The notes under the pieces: model-generated
Databases searched by the model: none
What the model was told of the DNA's origin: nothing
Seen by the model: only the letters and a program-made list of their open reading frames with translations
Program-made: the position numbers and the translations under genes
Assembly (NCBI RefSeq): GCF_016900655.1
Contig: NZ_JACJKH010000005.1
Span: 62,001-126,000 of the forward strand
Reading direction: 5' to 3'
From: Drancourtella massiliensis
GTDB taxonomy: Bacteria > Bacillota > Clostridia > Lachnospirales > Lachnospiraceae
Length of the DNA stretch: 64,000 nt
Shown: piece by piece, positions 37,148 to 39,856 of the stretch
Position numbering within the stretch: position 1 is the first letter of the stretch
How the letters are laid out: every line of letters starts with the position of its first letter

Positions 37148-37384
37148 ATGCAGAATTATTATCAGCGCCCTCCGTTCCGCCAGCCTTATAAGAATCAGGA
37201 TCACACGGGAAAGAGCATCTGCGGCGCGAAAGAAAATCTGAAAAAAGAGTTTCCTGTTGCAATGGCTTATGTCCCGTGGCAGCGCTATATGGAACCTTAC
37301 CCGGTTTGCAGGGCCTTTATACGGGGGACTATTTTCGAGGAGCTCGACAAACCGTTTCTTGGCAAAGGAGGCTGCTGTTCATGA
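37148..37384 (+). CDS. cotJA: Spore coat associated protein CotJA
   Basis: This 78-residue protein has the CotJA hallmarks AMAYVPWQRYMEPYP and the C-terminal FRGTIFEEL-type segment FIRGTIFEELDKPFLG, followed by a Gly-Cys end. In Bacillus the cotJABC operon is transcribed by sigma-E in the mother cell, and the proteins go to the inner coat. The start at 37148 is chosen because AAAGGAG lies 7 bp upstream; the frame is open further upstream but without a ribosome site. The stop overlaps the cotJB start as ATGA. A weak sigma-E-like -10 CATATGAT (37107-37114) lies upstream. Confidence 0.92.
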   Translation: MQNYYQRPPFRQPYKNQDHTGKSICGAKENLKKEFPVAMAYVPWQRYMEPYPVCRAFIRGTIFEELDKPFLGKGGCCS

Positions 37385-37650
37385 AAAACTTTCCTTCACG
37401 AAAAGAGCTTTTAAACCATATTAACACTGTCAGCTTTGCTGTAAATGACATTCAGCTGTATCTCGACACACATCCGGATGACGAAGAAGCACTCGCCTTT
37501 TTTCACAAATATAAAGAGCAGCGTATCAAGGCGCTGGAAGAATATGCAGCATGTTATGGTCCTCTCACCATTGACAGTACGGACGAATCATGCGGGGACC
37601 GCTGGAACTGGATCAACGAACCATGGCCATGGCAGGAAGGAGGATGCTGA
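37381..37650 (+). CDS. cotJB: Spore coat protein CotJB
   Basis: This 89-residue protein contains the CotJB features LLNHINTVSFAVNDIQLYLD, THPDDEEALAFF and the C-terminal WNWINEPWPWQEGGC. It is coupled to cotJA by ATGA and ends three bases before the cotJC start. It is expected in the spore inner coat with CotJC. Its intactness suggests the locus is still under selection. Confidence 0.93.
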   Translation: MKNFPSRKELLNHINTVSFAVNDIQLYLDTHPDDEEALAFFHKYKEQRIKALEEYAACYGPLTIDSTDESCGDRWNWINEPWPWQEGGC

Positions 37651-37653
37651 TTT

Positions 37654-37941
37654 ATGTGGAATTATGAAAAACGTCTTCAGTTTCCGGTAAAAATTTCAAA
37701 ACCGGATCCAAAAGCGGCCCAGATTATCATCAGTCAGTTCGGAGGCCCTGACGGAGAGCTTGCAGCATCCATGCGCTACCTCTCTCAACGGTATACCATG
37801 CCTTACAAAGAGGTTACCGGAATTCTGACCGATATCGGGACCGAAGAATCCGCTCCGATTTCTTATTTCTTTTTTGTCTTTCTTTGTCTTTTTCCGTCTA
37901 AAAATGTCGTATTTATATTTCCCGGCTTTTCTATATTATAA
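37654..37941 (+). CDS. cotJC: CotJC N-terminal part, interrupted by the 1591-bp element
   Basis: Codons 1-65 are a normal CotJC N-terminus: MWNYEKRLQFPVKI, SQFGGPDGELAASMRYLSQR (metal-ligand Glu35) and TDIGTEE (Glu65). CotJC is a di-manganese catalase homologue of the spore coat. After the second Glu codon of GAAGAA (37843-37848) the frame runs into unrelated DNA, adding a hydrophobic 30-residue tail before TAA at 37939. The missing part of CotJC resumes at 39440. Both parts are free of stops and frameshifts. As drawn, the vegetative gene makes a 95-residue dead-end product; excision between the GAAGAA copies would restore the gene. Confidence 0.93.
   Translation: MWNYEKRLQFPVKISKPDPKAAQIIISQFGGPDGELAASMRYLSQRYTMPYKEVTGILTDIGTEESAPISYFFFVFLCLFPSKNVVFIFPGFSIL
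37843..37848 (+). repeat. Left recombination core (attL), GAAGAA
   Basis: GAAGAA forms codons 64-65 of cotJC. The same hexamer in the same orientation is at 39434-39439. Bases to its left belong to cotJC, those to its right to the element. The half-site GCTCCGA follows at 37852-37858. Confidence 0.8.
37873..37911 (+). promoter_or_regulatory. Four 10-bp-phased GTC motifs, Spo0A-box-like
   Basis: GTC occurs at 37876, 37886, 37896 and 37906, in the contexts TTTTGTCTT, CTTTGTCTT, TTCCGTCTA and AAATGTCGTA. The 0A box is TTTGTCRAA (core TGTCGAA); the last site matches the core at six of seven bases, the first two match TTTGTC. The array lies between attL and the promoter of the Spo0A-C-like gene. 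T-richness could create part of the pattern. Confidence 0.4.
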
Positions 37942-37942
37942 T
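37914..37942 (+). promoter_or_regulatory. Candidate promoter of the Spo0A-C-like gene
   Basis: A perfect TATAAT at 37937-37942 lies 43 bp before the gene; no good sigma-A -35 is present. Read as sigma-E, TATATTT (37914-37920) and ATTATAAT (37935-37942) are 14 bp apart, a partial match. No terminator separates cotJB/cotJC' from this gene, so read-through from the cotJ promoter is also likely. Confidence 0.35.
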
Positions 37943-37985
37943 AGAACATTATGGTGTTGTCTCAGATGTAAGAGAAAGGAGAATC

Positions 37986-38321
37986 ATGGAAAATCTTTCG
38001 CAGCTGATTCACAGGCTGGGTATCAATGCCACTTACCGCGGGTATCACTACCTCTACAGAGCAGTCATTCTTGCCCTGTCCAATGAAGAGTATCTTCTTT
38101 CCATCACAAAAAAGCTGTATCTTGATATCGCTTCTTATTATCATACTCCGGTAAGTAATGTAGAACGAAACCTCCGTACAGTAATCACGATTTGCTGGGA
38201 ACGTGGAAACAGAGAGTTTTTAAGTCAGATTGCATCCTATCCTCTTGGCTTTAAACCTTCTGCCGGAGAATTCATTGATATCCTTGTTGCTTATTGCCAG
38301 GAACATAACATCAGACATTGA
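37986..38321 (+). CDS. Stand-alone Spo0A C-terminal-domain protein in the cotJC element
   Basis: This 111-residue protein aligns along its whole length with the DNA-binding effector domain of Spo0A: LIHRLGINATYRGYHYLYRA, LLSITKKLYLDIASYY, the recognition-helix segment VSNVERNLRTVITICWERGN and KPSAGEFIDIL. There is no receiver domain, so it cannot be controlled by phosphorelay phosphorylation. It follows AGGAGAATC. It may regulate the element's genes, act as a recombination directionality factor, or compete with Spo0A at its boxes; none of these is proven. GTC motifs resembling 0A boxes lie just upstream. Divergence from Spo0A suggests an old, specialised paralogue. Confidence 0.85.
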   Translation: MENLSQLIHRLGINATYRGYHYLYRAVILALSNEEYLLSITKKLYLDIASYYHTPVSNVERNLRTVITICWERGNREFLSQIASYPLGFKPSAGEFIDILVAYCQEHNIRH

Positions 38322-38446
38322 TCCGGTTACATATTGTTCATGCTTTTTTCAAATCAGAAACATATTTTTTTCATATTCTTCCTGTATATTAAAACACATA
38401 GAAAGCAAAACCTTTCTAAGTAAACAATTTTCTTTTTCATAATTCA

Positions 38447-38467
38447 GCCGGTACATTTTGTACCGGC
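38447..38467 (+). terminator. Hairpin between the two element genes
   Basis: Arms GCCGGTAC (38447-38454) and GTACCGGC (38460-38467) enclose ATTTT. A short CATTTTT run follows 8 bp on. It should isolate the Spo0A-C-like gene from the recombinase gene. Confidence 0.55.
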
Positions 38468-38490
38468 ACTCCTCATTTTTGGACCTCTTT

Positions 38491-38520
38491 TTCATATCTT
38501 CTCTTTTTTATTCATAAATT
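38491..38520 (+). promoter_or_regulatory. Candidate sigma-E promoter of the recombinase
   Basis: TCATATC (38492-38498) and CATAAATT (38513-38520) are 14 bp apart, compared with the sigma-E consensus KMATATT-N14/15-CATACANT. They match at six of seven and about six of eight positions. The predicted transcript starts just before the recombinase gene and after the hairpin at 38447-38467. This would give mother-cell expression. Confidence 0.5.
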
Positions 38521-38540
38521 TCTACAAAACAGTTAACAGG

Positions 38541-39458
38541 ATGATTTTTTTGTCTTATTGCATGTATCTTAGAAAATCCCGAAAAGATCTGGAAATGGAG
38601 CGTCTTCACCCGGGAAGCACACTTCTCCGGCATGAATCCGTTCTGAGATCCCTTGCCGACTCCATGTCTCTCCCCGTCCTGAAAATCTACCGGGAAGTCG
38701 GATCCGGAGATACGATCTCCGGCCGTCCCGTAATGAAACAGCTGCTTTCCGAGGTAGAACAGGGAAAGTGGGAAGGTGTCCTGGTTATGGAAATTGAACG
38801 TCTGGCAAGAGGCGACTCTATCGATCAGGGGATCGTAACACGGACTTTTCAGTACAGCGGCACGCGGATTATAACCCCGTACAAAATCTACGAACCGGAA
38901 AATGATTTTGATCTGGAGTATTTTGAATTCAGTCTCTTCATGTCCCGCAGAGAGTATAAAACAATCAACCGGCGGATGCAGGCCGGAAGGCTCGCCAGTA
39001 TCAAAGAGGGAAAATACGTCGGGAATATTGCCCCGTACGGATATGACCGTATTCGTCTTCCCGACCGGAAAGGTTTTACACTCTGCCCGAATCACGAATC
39101 TCCTGCTGTCCGTCTGATTTTTTCTCTTTACGGCGAAAAATCCTTCACTATTTCCGAAGTTGTCGGTGAACTGAACCGTTCCCGCACTTACCATCCCCGG
39201 AAAGCCCCTGCATTTACCTATTCCTCCGTTCACGATATACTGGATAATCCTGTCTATATCGGGAAACTTCGCTGGAATTACCGGAAGACTTCGCCAAAAC
39301 TGAAGGATGGAATTCTTACTGCACACCGGCCAAGGCAGAACGACTATCTCATTGTCCAGGGTCTTCATCCCGCCCTGATCTCCGAAGACCTGTTTTTTAC
39401 TGTTCAAAAGCGACTTCATCCTTATTCGGAGCAGAAGAACTCGCCCATATGGAAATGA
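38541..39458 (+). CDS. Compact serine recombinase of the cotJC element
   Basis: This 305-residue protein has a resolvase catalytic domain (1-150) with YLRKS (nucleophile Ser13), REVGSGDTISGRPVM and ERLARGDSIDQG, then a Recombinase domain (about 160-295: GKYVGNIAPYGYDR, VRLIFSLYG, ILDNPVYIGK). It ends where the zinc ribbon and coiled coil of large serine recombinases should begin. The reading frame crosses the right core (39434-39439), so its last residues SPIWK are encoded by cotJC DNA and would change after excision. The first ATG touches AACAGG; a TTG at 38550 is better spaced and may be the real start. It presumably excises the element. Confidence 0.88.
   Translation: MIFLSYCMYLRKSRKDLEMERLHPGSTLLRHESVLRSLADSMSLPVLKIYREVGSGDTISGRPVMKQLLSEVEQGKWEGVLVMEIERLARGDSIDQGIVTRTFQYSGTRIITPYKIYEPENDFDLEYFEFSLFMSRREYKTINRRMQAGRLASIKEGKYVGNIAPYGYDRIRLPDRKGFTLCPNHESPAVRLIFSLYGEKSFTISEVVGELNRSRTYHPRKAPAFTYSSVHDILDNPVYIGKLRWNYRKTSPKLKDGILTAHRPRQNDYLIVQGLHPALISEDLFFTVQKRLHPYSEQKNSPIWK
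39426..39439 (+). repeat. Right recombination site (attR): TCGGAGC-A-GAAGAA
   Basis: The core GAAGAA is at 39434-39439, preceded by the element half-site TCGGAGC (39426-39432). Together with GCTCCGA at the left end (37852-37858), the circular junction would be TCGGAGC-N10-GCTCCGA with GAAGAA in the spacer. Confidence 0.75.
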
Positions 39459-39856
39459 TCTGTGCCATTGTCCATCAGCTGACAAGAAACCTGTCCCCGG
39501 AAGAAATTGAGCGTTCCGGATTTGCCACATATTATGTGGACCATACACTGGCTCTCTGGCCTCAGGCCGCAAGCGGAATGCCATGGACCGCCACTGTATT
39601 CCAGTCCAAAGGGGATCCGATCACAGATCTTCACGAAAACCTTGCAGCAGAGCAAAAAGCCCGTACAACTTATGATAACATTCTCCGTCTGATCGATGAT
39701 CCGGATATCATCGCCCCGATCCGTTTCTTAAGAGAACGCGAAATTGTTCATTATCAACGTTTCGGCGAATCACTCCGCATTGTAACCGACCATCTCGACA
39801 GTAAGAACTTCTATGCGTTCAACCCTGAATTTGACAATCCGGCCTGCCGATCCTGA
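39440..39856 (+). CDS. cotJC: CotJC C-terminal part, needs excision to be joined
   Basis: From the right core this frame encodes LAHMEMICAIVHQLT to the end, 138 residues, corresponding to CotJC residues 66-203 of the rejoined protein. It contains the remaining di-metal ligands of the Mn-catalase fold: His68 (ExxH), Glu136 (AAEQKART) and His169 (REREIVHYQRF). The Mn-catalase stretch SGMPWTATVFQSKGDP is well kept. There is no ribosome site or good start codon for it, so it is probably silent until joined to codons 1-65. An ATG at 39449 exists, but CotJC made from there would lack His68. Confidence 0.92.
   Translation, partial: LAHMEMICAIVHQLTRNLSPEEIERSGFATYYVDHTLALWPQAASGMPWTATVFQSKGDPITDLHENLAAEQKARTTYDNILRLIDDPDIIAPIRFLREREIVHYQRFGESLRIVTDHLDSKNFYAFNPEFDNPACRS

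Follow-up and report, generated by a model that had tools for sequence, protein, structure and literature searches.

A 1,591-bp element at positions 37849-39439 of the window (the whole 64-kb stretch of DNA analysed, from a 3.27 Mb Sellimonas genome, G000) was found to interrupt cotJC, and its gene content is two genes, one encoding a Spo0A-C-only protein and the other a serine recombinase of 305 residues. At a probability that we put at roughly 70%, this is a domesticated, minimal skin-like element that arose from a prophage integrated into cotJC and that carries an excision-only recombinase. Judged by substitution rates, the short enzyme and the split cotJC are kept by purifying selection in two species.

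The gene order is cotJA, cotJB, the first 65 codons of cotJC, the element and the remainder of cotJC (Table 1), with the core GAAGAA at both ends of the element (37843-37848 and 39434-39439). When the flanks were rejoined in silico, cotJC was open over 203 codons, and one of the two congeners compared (G001 and G002), namely G001, contains an intact cotJC at the corresponding place. Skin-like elements are excised during sporulation in the mother cell. As in such elements, a sporulation gene is interrupted here between short direct repeats, precise removal of the insert in silico restores cotJC, and the insert encodes its own site-specific recombinase under selection; when a directionality factor was sought among the element genes, the sole other gene was the Spo0A-C-like one. 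A search of the G000 assembly for a healed cotJC or a circle junction returned the two integrated junctions only. The search pattern fits G000, and the attL of G002 and the intact cotJC of G001 do not match it exactly, so that the search is a fair test for G000 only; in G002, attR was matched.

RNA family searches gave two matches only (MIR5267 and snR84), both far below their gathering scores. Promoter scans found 5 candidates against 2.6 +/- 1.6 expected, and terminator scans 2 against 2.0 expected. The stretch between the two element genes is identical at 114 of 124 nt in the two species, despite a dS close to or exceeding 1.

Table 1. Features of the split cotJC and its insert (positions in the window)
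Feature	Position	Strand	Basis or remark
cotJA	37148..37384	+	Pfam CotJA
cotJB	37381..37650	+	Pfam CotJB
cotJC 5' part, 65 codons, core GAAGAA at its end	37654..37848	+	Pfam Mn_catalase; dN/dS 0.021; in-frame join
attL core GAAGAA	37843..37848	+	22-nt block 37840-37861 identical in second Sellimonas species
attL element arm, inner motif kept, outer degraded	37849..37878	+	score against 25 relatives
Four GTC triplets, exact 10-bp spacing, probably 0A-box-like promoter array of Spo0A-C gene	37876..37908	+	first triplet 28 nt from core
Spo0A-C-only protein, 111 aa	37986..38321	+	PF08769 E 4.7e-31; dN/dS 0.05; PDB relatives 1FC3, 1LQ1
Non-coding stretch	38322..38445	.	92% identity between two species
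Truncated serine recombinase, catalytic + Recombinase domain, 305 aa	38541..39458	+	Pfam, dN/dS, structure model
attR element arm and core, within recombinase codons; inner motif kept, outer lost	39404..39439	+	score against 31 relatives
44-nt block across attR, identical in both species	39428..39471	+	longest identical run of aligned region
cotJC 3' part	39440..39856	+	Pfam Mn_catalase; dN/dS 0.021

The truncated recombinase and its conservation

Pfam places a Resolvase domain at residues 8-159 of the recombinase and a Recombinase domain at residues 185-292 (PF07508, 64 bits), with nothing C-terminal of these. The catalytic domain (PF00239) keeps the invariant columns, including R11, S13, R87 and R90, which we take to be catalytic residues. 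No match to the zinc ribbon (PF13408) was obtained in this copy or in that of the second Sellimonas species (locus L044 of G002), whereas four of four full-length relatives scanned likewise contained one at residues 313-369 (E 1.2e-4 or better, two of the four above the Pfam curated cut-off). Just 13 residues follow the Recombinase domain, leaving no C-terminal extension, and the preliminary description of the protein as lacking zinc ribbon and coiled coil is thus borne out. Small serine recombinases of the resolvase/invertase type have a catalytic domain followed only by a short helix-turn-helix; here the catalytic domain is followed by a Recombinase domain, and by its domain content the protein is derived from the large serine recombinases without being a full member of that family. 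The possibility of a split enzyme was addressed with the C-terminal half of the recombinase at L016, which matched nothing in three of three Sellimonas genomes and gave a match in three of three control genomes, one of them its own.

At the C terminus, cotJC DNA supplies the whole of codons 301-305 (SPIWK), and the codon of N300 spans the edge of the core, exactly as in the earlier claim that the frame reads through attR and takes its last five residues from cotJC; the terminal residues EQKNSPIWK are common to both species. At the N terminus, the second species has no ATG at the annotated start of the window copy, and a TTG three codons on (38550 in the window), common to both, may be the true start. 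An AlphaFold2 model (27 sequences) had a mean pLDDT of 85 and a pTM of 0.58, with its last helix at residues 282-292. Its best PDB matches by Foldseek were the SP-beta integrase with or without its recombination directionality factor (RDF; E ~1e-22), at whole-chain TM-scores of only 0.44-0.46; a variable orientation of the two domains may account for the low values. Foldseek also matched 4BQQ, the catalytic and Recombinase-domain fragment of a Streptomyces phage enzyme.

The second Sellimonas species contains the same element with the same truncation end, and the divergence of the two copies therefore postdates the truncation, unless the truncation arose twice. Nei-Gojobori comparison of the two copies gave a dN/dS of 0.079 (dS 1.36) for the recombinase (Fisher p 2e-52, with site counts back-calculated from rounded values) and 0.050 (dS 1.17) for the Spo0A-C gene; the values for cotJC were 0.021 in both the 5' part (dS 0.94) and the 3' part (dS 1.38), and the intact neighbour cotJB gave 0.14 at a saturated dS of 2.1. 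Among 102 columns conserved to at least 95% in 20 relatives, 89 are unchanged in both Sellimonas copies and 13 are changed in one or both. A tree whose deeper branches are only partly resolved places the pair among its integrase relatives on a long stem of 1.04 changes per column. On the cotJC side, an identical run of at least 32 nt starting from the core occurred in 0.2% of codon shuffles, and 10% of shuffles had one as long somewhere in the cotJC 3' part. By these measures the short recombinase is truncated but not dead.

Integrases and att sites at cotJC

A search of 397 genomes of the family at E<=1e-30 yielded 34 recombinase matches in 31 genomes. Thirty lie in open frames of at least 519 codons (one with an internal TGA), and four have an open frame below 400 codons, namely the two Sellimonas copies, G251 (320) and G206 (351). 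Among the matches listed from 392 genomes of the order (E<=1e-40), 60 in 50 genomes, 55 lie in frames of at least 497 codons (one with an internal TGA), and five fall below 450: the window copy, G614 (two stops), G514, and partial matches in G537 and G679. Other loci looked short or broken because the contig ends there (L061, L105), because bases are unread (L059) or because the frame is broken (L064). Nearly all matches extend over approximately the first 290 residues, with 34-58% identity to the window recombinase, and the full-length relatives are mostly 490-580 aa long. The G251 copy (L126:9949-10893), a truncated integrase of 314 codons, showed no cotJC half in a 20-kb stretch.

A cotJC half was found beside the recombinase at 34 of the 40 loci inspected and at none of the other six; counted among the 34 are the window, L044 together with its duplicate L127, and L118, whose cotJC is uninterrupted. 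For the loci new to the order search, 17 of 28 contained a cotJC half within the fetched flank of ~1.5 kb. The cotJC homology ends at, or a few codons from, one common boundary, and some of the att arms look like the next cotJC codons. By this distribution, cotJC would be a site of repeated integration in Clostridia and Paenibacillus. The C. difficile prophage phi027 adjoins a CotJC-homologous gene, with a different att sequence (PMC11222575, excerpt). Among named phages with integrases of this family, the nearest are phiIBB_P123, Dorea phage DO134P1 and THSA-485A, and all 12 viral contigs matched at 48% identity or more have the match no further than 2.4 kb from a contig end, as for prophage integrases. 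Two further arrangements were observed: a 2,505-bp cotJC element in G260 (L114:6833-9337) with a full-length integrase, tRNA-Val and tRNA-Ala genes and, by eye, a holin-like frame, which is probably a shrunken prophage; and, in G300 (L118:9245-11721), a full-length integrase of the same family directly upstream of the uninterrupted cotJC. Searches of the open-access literature, with subscription papers outside their scope, for cotJC together with recombinase terms returned no paper containing cotJC; open-access listings on sporulation rearrangements since 2018 held nothing on such an element, and no open-access paper was found on integrases naturally without a coiled coil.

In 14 of the 15 usable elements whose integrase points to attR (the Sellimonas copies, L059 with its unread bases, and L118 being left out), the integrase stop lies 22-104 nt before the junction. 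Read-through of attR is not unique to Sellimonas, as the full-length integrase of a 2,370-bp element in G257 (L123:4619-6988) runs 85 nt past the attR junction into cotJC. From these distances and L123, integrase genes of the family commonly end at or within their own att site, and the Sellimonas read-through extends this pattern.

The att arms were scored against 31 relatives at attR and 25 at attL, the relatives themselves by leave-one-out. Rows were required to reach within three codons of the cotJC boundary, and L118 (intact cotJC) and L127 (same contig as L044) were left out; because rows L050/L166, L163/L188/L193, L185/L191, L049/L155, L164/L165 and L169/L172 are identical or near-identical, the 31 and 25 are not independent. 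The inner arms of the window scored 3.7 at attR and 1.7 at attL (relatives' mean 7.7 and 5.2; random -10.4 and -7.6), and those of the second species 2.8 and 1.7. For the outer arms, the window scored -11.3 at attR, where the relatives averaged 5.4 with a minimum of -8.9 and random stood at -8.7; at attL it scored -4.2, where the relatives averaged 7.8 with a minimum of -3.0 and random stood at -11.5. The loss of the outer arms is clear in the window, and those of the second species, at -8.0 and -2.6, lie just above the lowest relatives. When the Listeria integrase is bound to its site, 25 bp of the half-site are covered jointly by the Recombinase and zinc domains (PMC3783163, excerpt), and from its distance the outer motif is presumably the part read by the zinc domain. 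The attR arm consists of codons of the recombinase linker, which resembles that of L016 (HPYSEQ versus HPHCPLSEQ); a deletion joining linker to core would explain the loss of both the protein half and the outer motif at attR.

The Spo0A-C-like protein and the control of excision

Residues 4-100 of the 111-residue protein align to the DNA-binding domain of Spo0A (PDB 1FC3, 1LQ1). It differs from Spo0A in having no receiver domain and in its recognition-helix region (SNVERNLR, compared with SRVERAIR in Spo0A). The GTC array upstream keeps its 10-bp steps and its 28-nt distance from the core in both species. Nowhere else in the 64-kb window do three or more GTC triplets follow one another at 10-bp steps, and 20,000 mononucleotide shuffles of this 137-nt stretch never produced a run of four. 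Between species the array is identical at 44 of 46 nt, and the next 17 nt at just 10. In the Spo0A box, TGTCGAA, the contacted bases are G2, C4 and G5 (PMC3485338, excerpt); G2 and C4 are kept in all four triplets and G5 in the fourth only.

Spo0A-C-only proteins were found in 27 of 299 family genomes, its own genome included (E<=1e-20). Upstream regions were examined for 30 of 36 matches plus the G002 element copy (31 in total, one of just 35 nt), and three or four GTC triplets in a run occur in six of them: in both element copies, where the run starts 110 nt upstream, and, outside this element, in L209, L213, L220 and L221, where it starts 101-144 nt upstream. In several others, 0A boxes were seen by eye. 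As Spo0A-C-only genes outside elements carry similar upstream arrays, the array most likely arrived with the Spo0A-C gene as its own promoter array; a role as purpose-made recombination accessory site is weakened by the same arrays, and the closeness to attL may leave room for a second role. Several of the stand-alone Spo0A-C proteins of other Lachnospiraceae (L210-L237) are encoded beside a response regulator or lysozyme-like gene (named by eye), and some of these genes have 10-bp phased 0A-box arrays. In G142 (L238:3111-4695) a Spo0A-C-only gene with a 0A-box-like array lies directly upstream of an intact cotJABC operon, and its product is the closest relative found of the element's protein outside Sellimonas. 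At 56 loci searched, the Spo0A-C gene was present only at L044 and L127, which are one contig; the four cotJC elements complete end to end (L047, L114, L116, L123) gave no Spo0A-C match, and the other loci are mostly partial. The viral contigs contained no relative of the protein. Phages do carry proteins of this type, since 14 records of a phage collection matched (all below 60% identity, the best at 37-38%), and phrog_24603, with no function assigned, matches it as well.

In the mechanism that we favour, a phage-type integrase, full length in the relatives, would have lost its zinc ribbon and C-terminal half in Sellimonas, and the remaining catalytic and Recombinase domains would read the inner att motifs and carry out attL x attR recombination. 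Excision would restore cotJC during sporulation. Without a coiled coil the enzyme would face no block on attL x attR recombination and have little ability to integrate, a loss that should cost little because a domesticated insert needs excision only. A Listeria integrase from which the coiled coil was deleted excised with four of four site pairs tested and did not integrate, behaving as an "unregulated resolvase" (PMC3783163, excerpt). In the C. difficile skin element, the recombinase requires the RDF CD1234 for excision only (PMC5025042, excerpt). RDFs have been modelled as contacting the recombinase C-terminal region (PMC10747680, excerpt), which is absent from the Sellimonas enzyme, and a classical directionality factor would not be needed by it. 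Timing would then come from gene expression and possibly also from the neighbouring Spo0A-C-like DNA-binding protein. The main difficulty is weak DNA binding, as a Listeria integrase without its whole zinc domain (residues 1-264) bound att DNA ~25-fold more weakly (PMC3783163, excerpt); if the enzyme is assisted, the Spo0A-C-like protein is the first candidate. As further counterweights, the form is found in two species only, and selection on the recombinase could serve another role.

A stronger form of this reading, overlapping with it in odds and held only tentatively, makes the Spo0A-C-like protein an obligatory architectural partner, bound to the phased GTC array by attL in place of both the zinc/coiled-coil part and a directionality factor. 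The two-gene content, strong selection on both genes, the fixed position and near-identity of the array in the two species, and the modelled RDF contacts to a region missing here are consistent with it. The four genes outside elements with similar arrays argue that the array is first of all a promoter, and four other cotJC elements, complete end to end, have no Spo0A-C match. It is conceivable, if doubtful, that a large serine recombinase was in this way turned into an accessory-protein-controlled one-way excisase, shedding zinc ribbon, coiled coil and outer att motifs together, while a Spo0A-C-like protein bound beside attL took over control of a 1.6-kb resolvase-like developmental switch.

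It is improbable that another genomic recombinase excises the element and that the short protein is a mere DNA-binding regulator at the att sites. G000 does contain three other Recombinase-domain places, but the next-best match there has just 29% identity, and in G002 (91% complete) the zinc ribbon was matched only by a frame of 290 codons and by a second hit that fell short of the cut-off. The short protein also keeps the catalytic serine motif, and conservation is stronger in its catalytic part (dN/dS 0.041) than elsewhere in the chain (0.136).

That the recombinase is a dead remnant and cotJC a pseudogene is very hard to maintain: the relatives are full length and zinc-domain deletion weakens DNA binding (PMC3783163, excerpt), but dN/dS is 0.02-0.08 over the recombinase, Spo0A-C gene and cotJC parts at dS 0.94-1.38, with all frames open in both species. 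The preliminary description had held that full-length homologues would mark this copy as truncated and inactive; the truncation stands, and the inactivity is contradicted by the recombinase dN/dS. It had also proposed that excision changes the C terminus, the frame continuing for ~80 codons in the circle. The frame is indeed open for 79 codons in the window and 70 in the second species, but a new tail altering activity is barely credible, as pN/pS is 1.22 over the 45 extension codons before the Spo0A-C gene (where mononucleotide shuffles leave a frame open with ~7% chance), which argues against selection on the circle frame, and the DNA is conserved in promoter-like patches, the array and not the 17 nt after it. 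The extended tail is probably an incidental by-product of excision.

Comparison with known systems

The Sellimonas enzyme resembles the cotJC-inserted phage-type large serine recombinases in its target codon (the same in many), core, inner att motif and a gene end that adjoins the att site, and differs from them in having no zinc ribbon or C-terminal half and in running into cotJC. The likeness to phiIBB_P123, DO134P1 and THSA-485A is one of integrase family. The closest solved structure, by sequence (3.6e-43) and by fold, is the SP-beta integrase YokA with YotN/RDF (9DXD, 9DXH). Excision of SP-beta likewise restores a sporulation gene (PMC4191935, excerpt); its integrase differs in having 545 aa in the chain, a small protein as RDF and spsM as target. 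In skin of C. difficile (CD1231/CD1234), gin of B. cereus and yin of C. botulinum, an element with its own serine recombinase likewise sits in a sporulation gene, and CD1231, like the Sellimonas recombinase, closely precedes the 3' half of the interrupted gene. There are 19 genes in skin of C. difficile and 31 in gin, an RDF is known for skin (CD1234) and gin (GirX) and predicted for yin, and CD1231 and the yin recombinase have a zinc ribbon, unlike the Sellimonas enzyme.

According to models of large serine recombinases, directionality is imposed by the coiled coil and the zinc domain. An enzyme that lacks both in nature, and is still under selection, is a ready test of this model and possibly a small excision-only tool, and would show an end point of phage domestication at which only excision is still required. 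Its preservation despite the missing half suggests that a phage integrase was trimmed to an enzyme that cuts one way only. The nearest parallel is the coiled-coil-deleted Listeria integrase, like which the Sellimonas enzyme is predicted to excise with any pair of sites and not to integrate; that deletion was made by design and kept the zinc domain (PMC3783163, excerpt), whereas the Sellimonas enzyme is natural and has neither.
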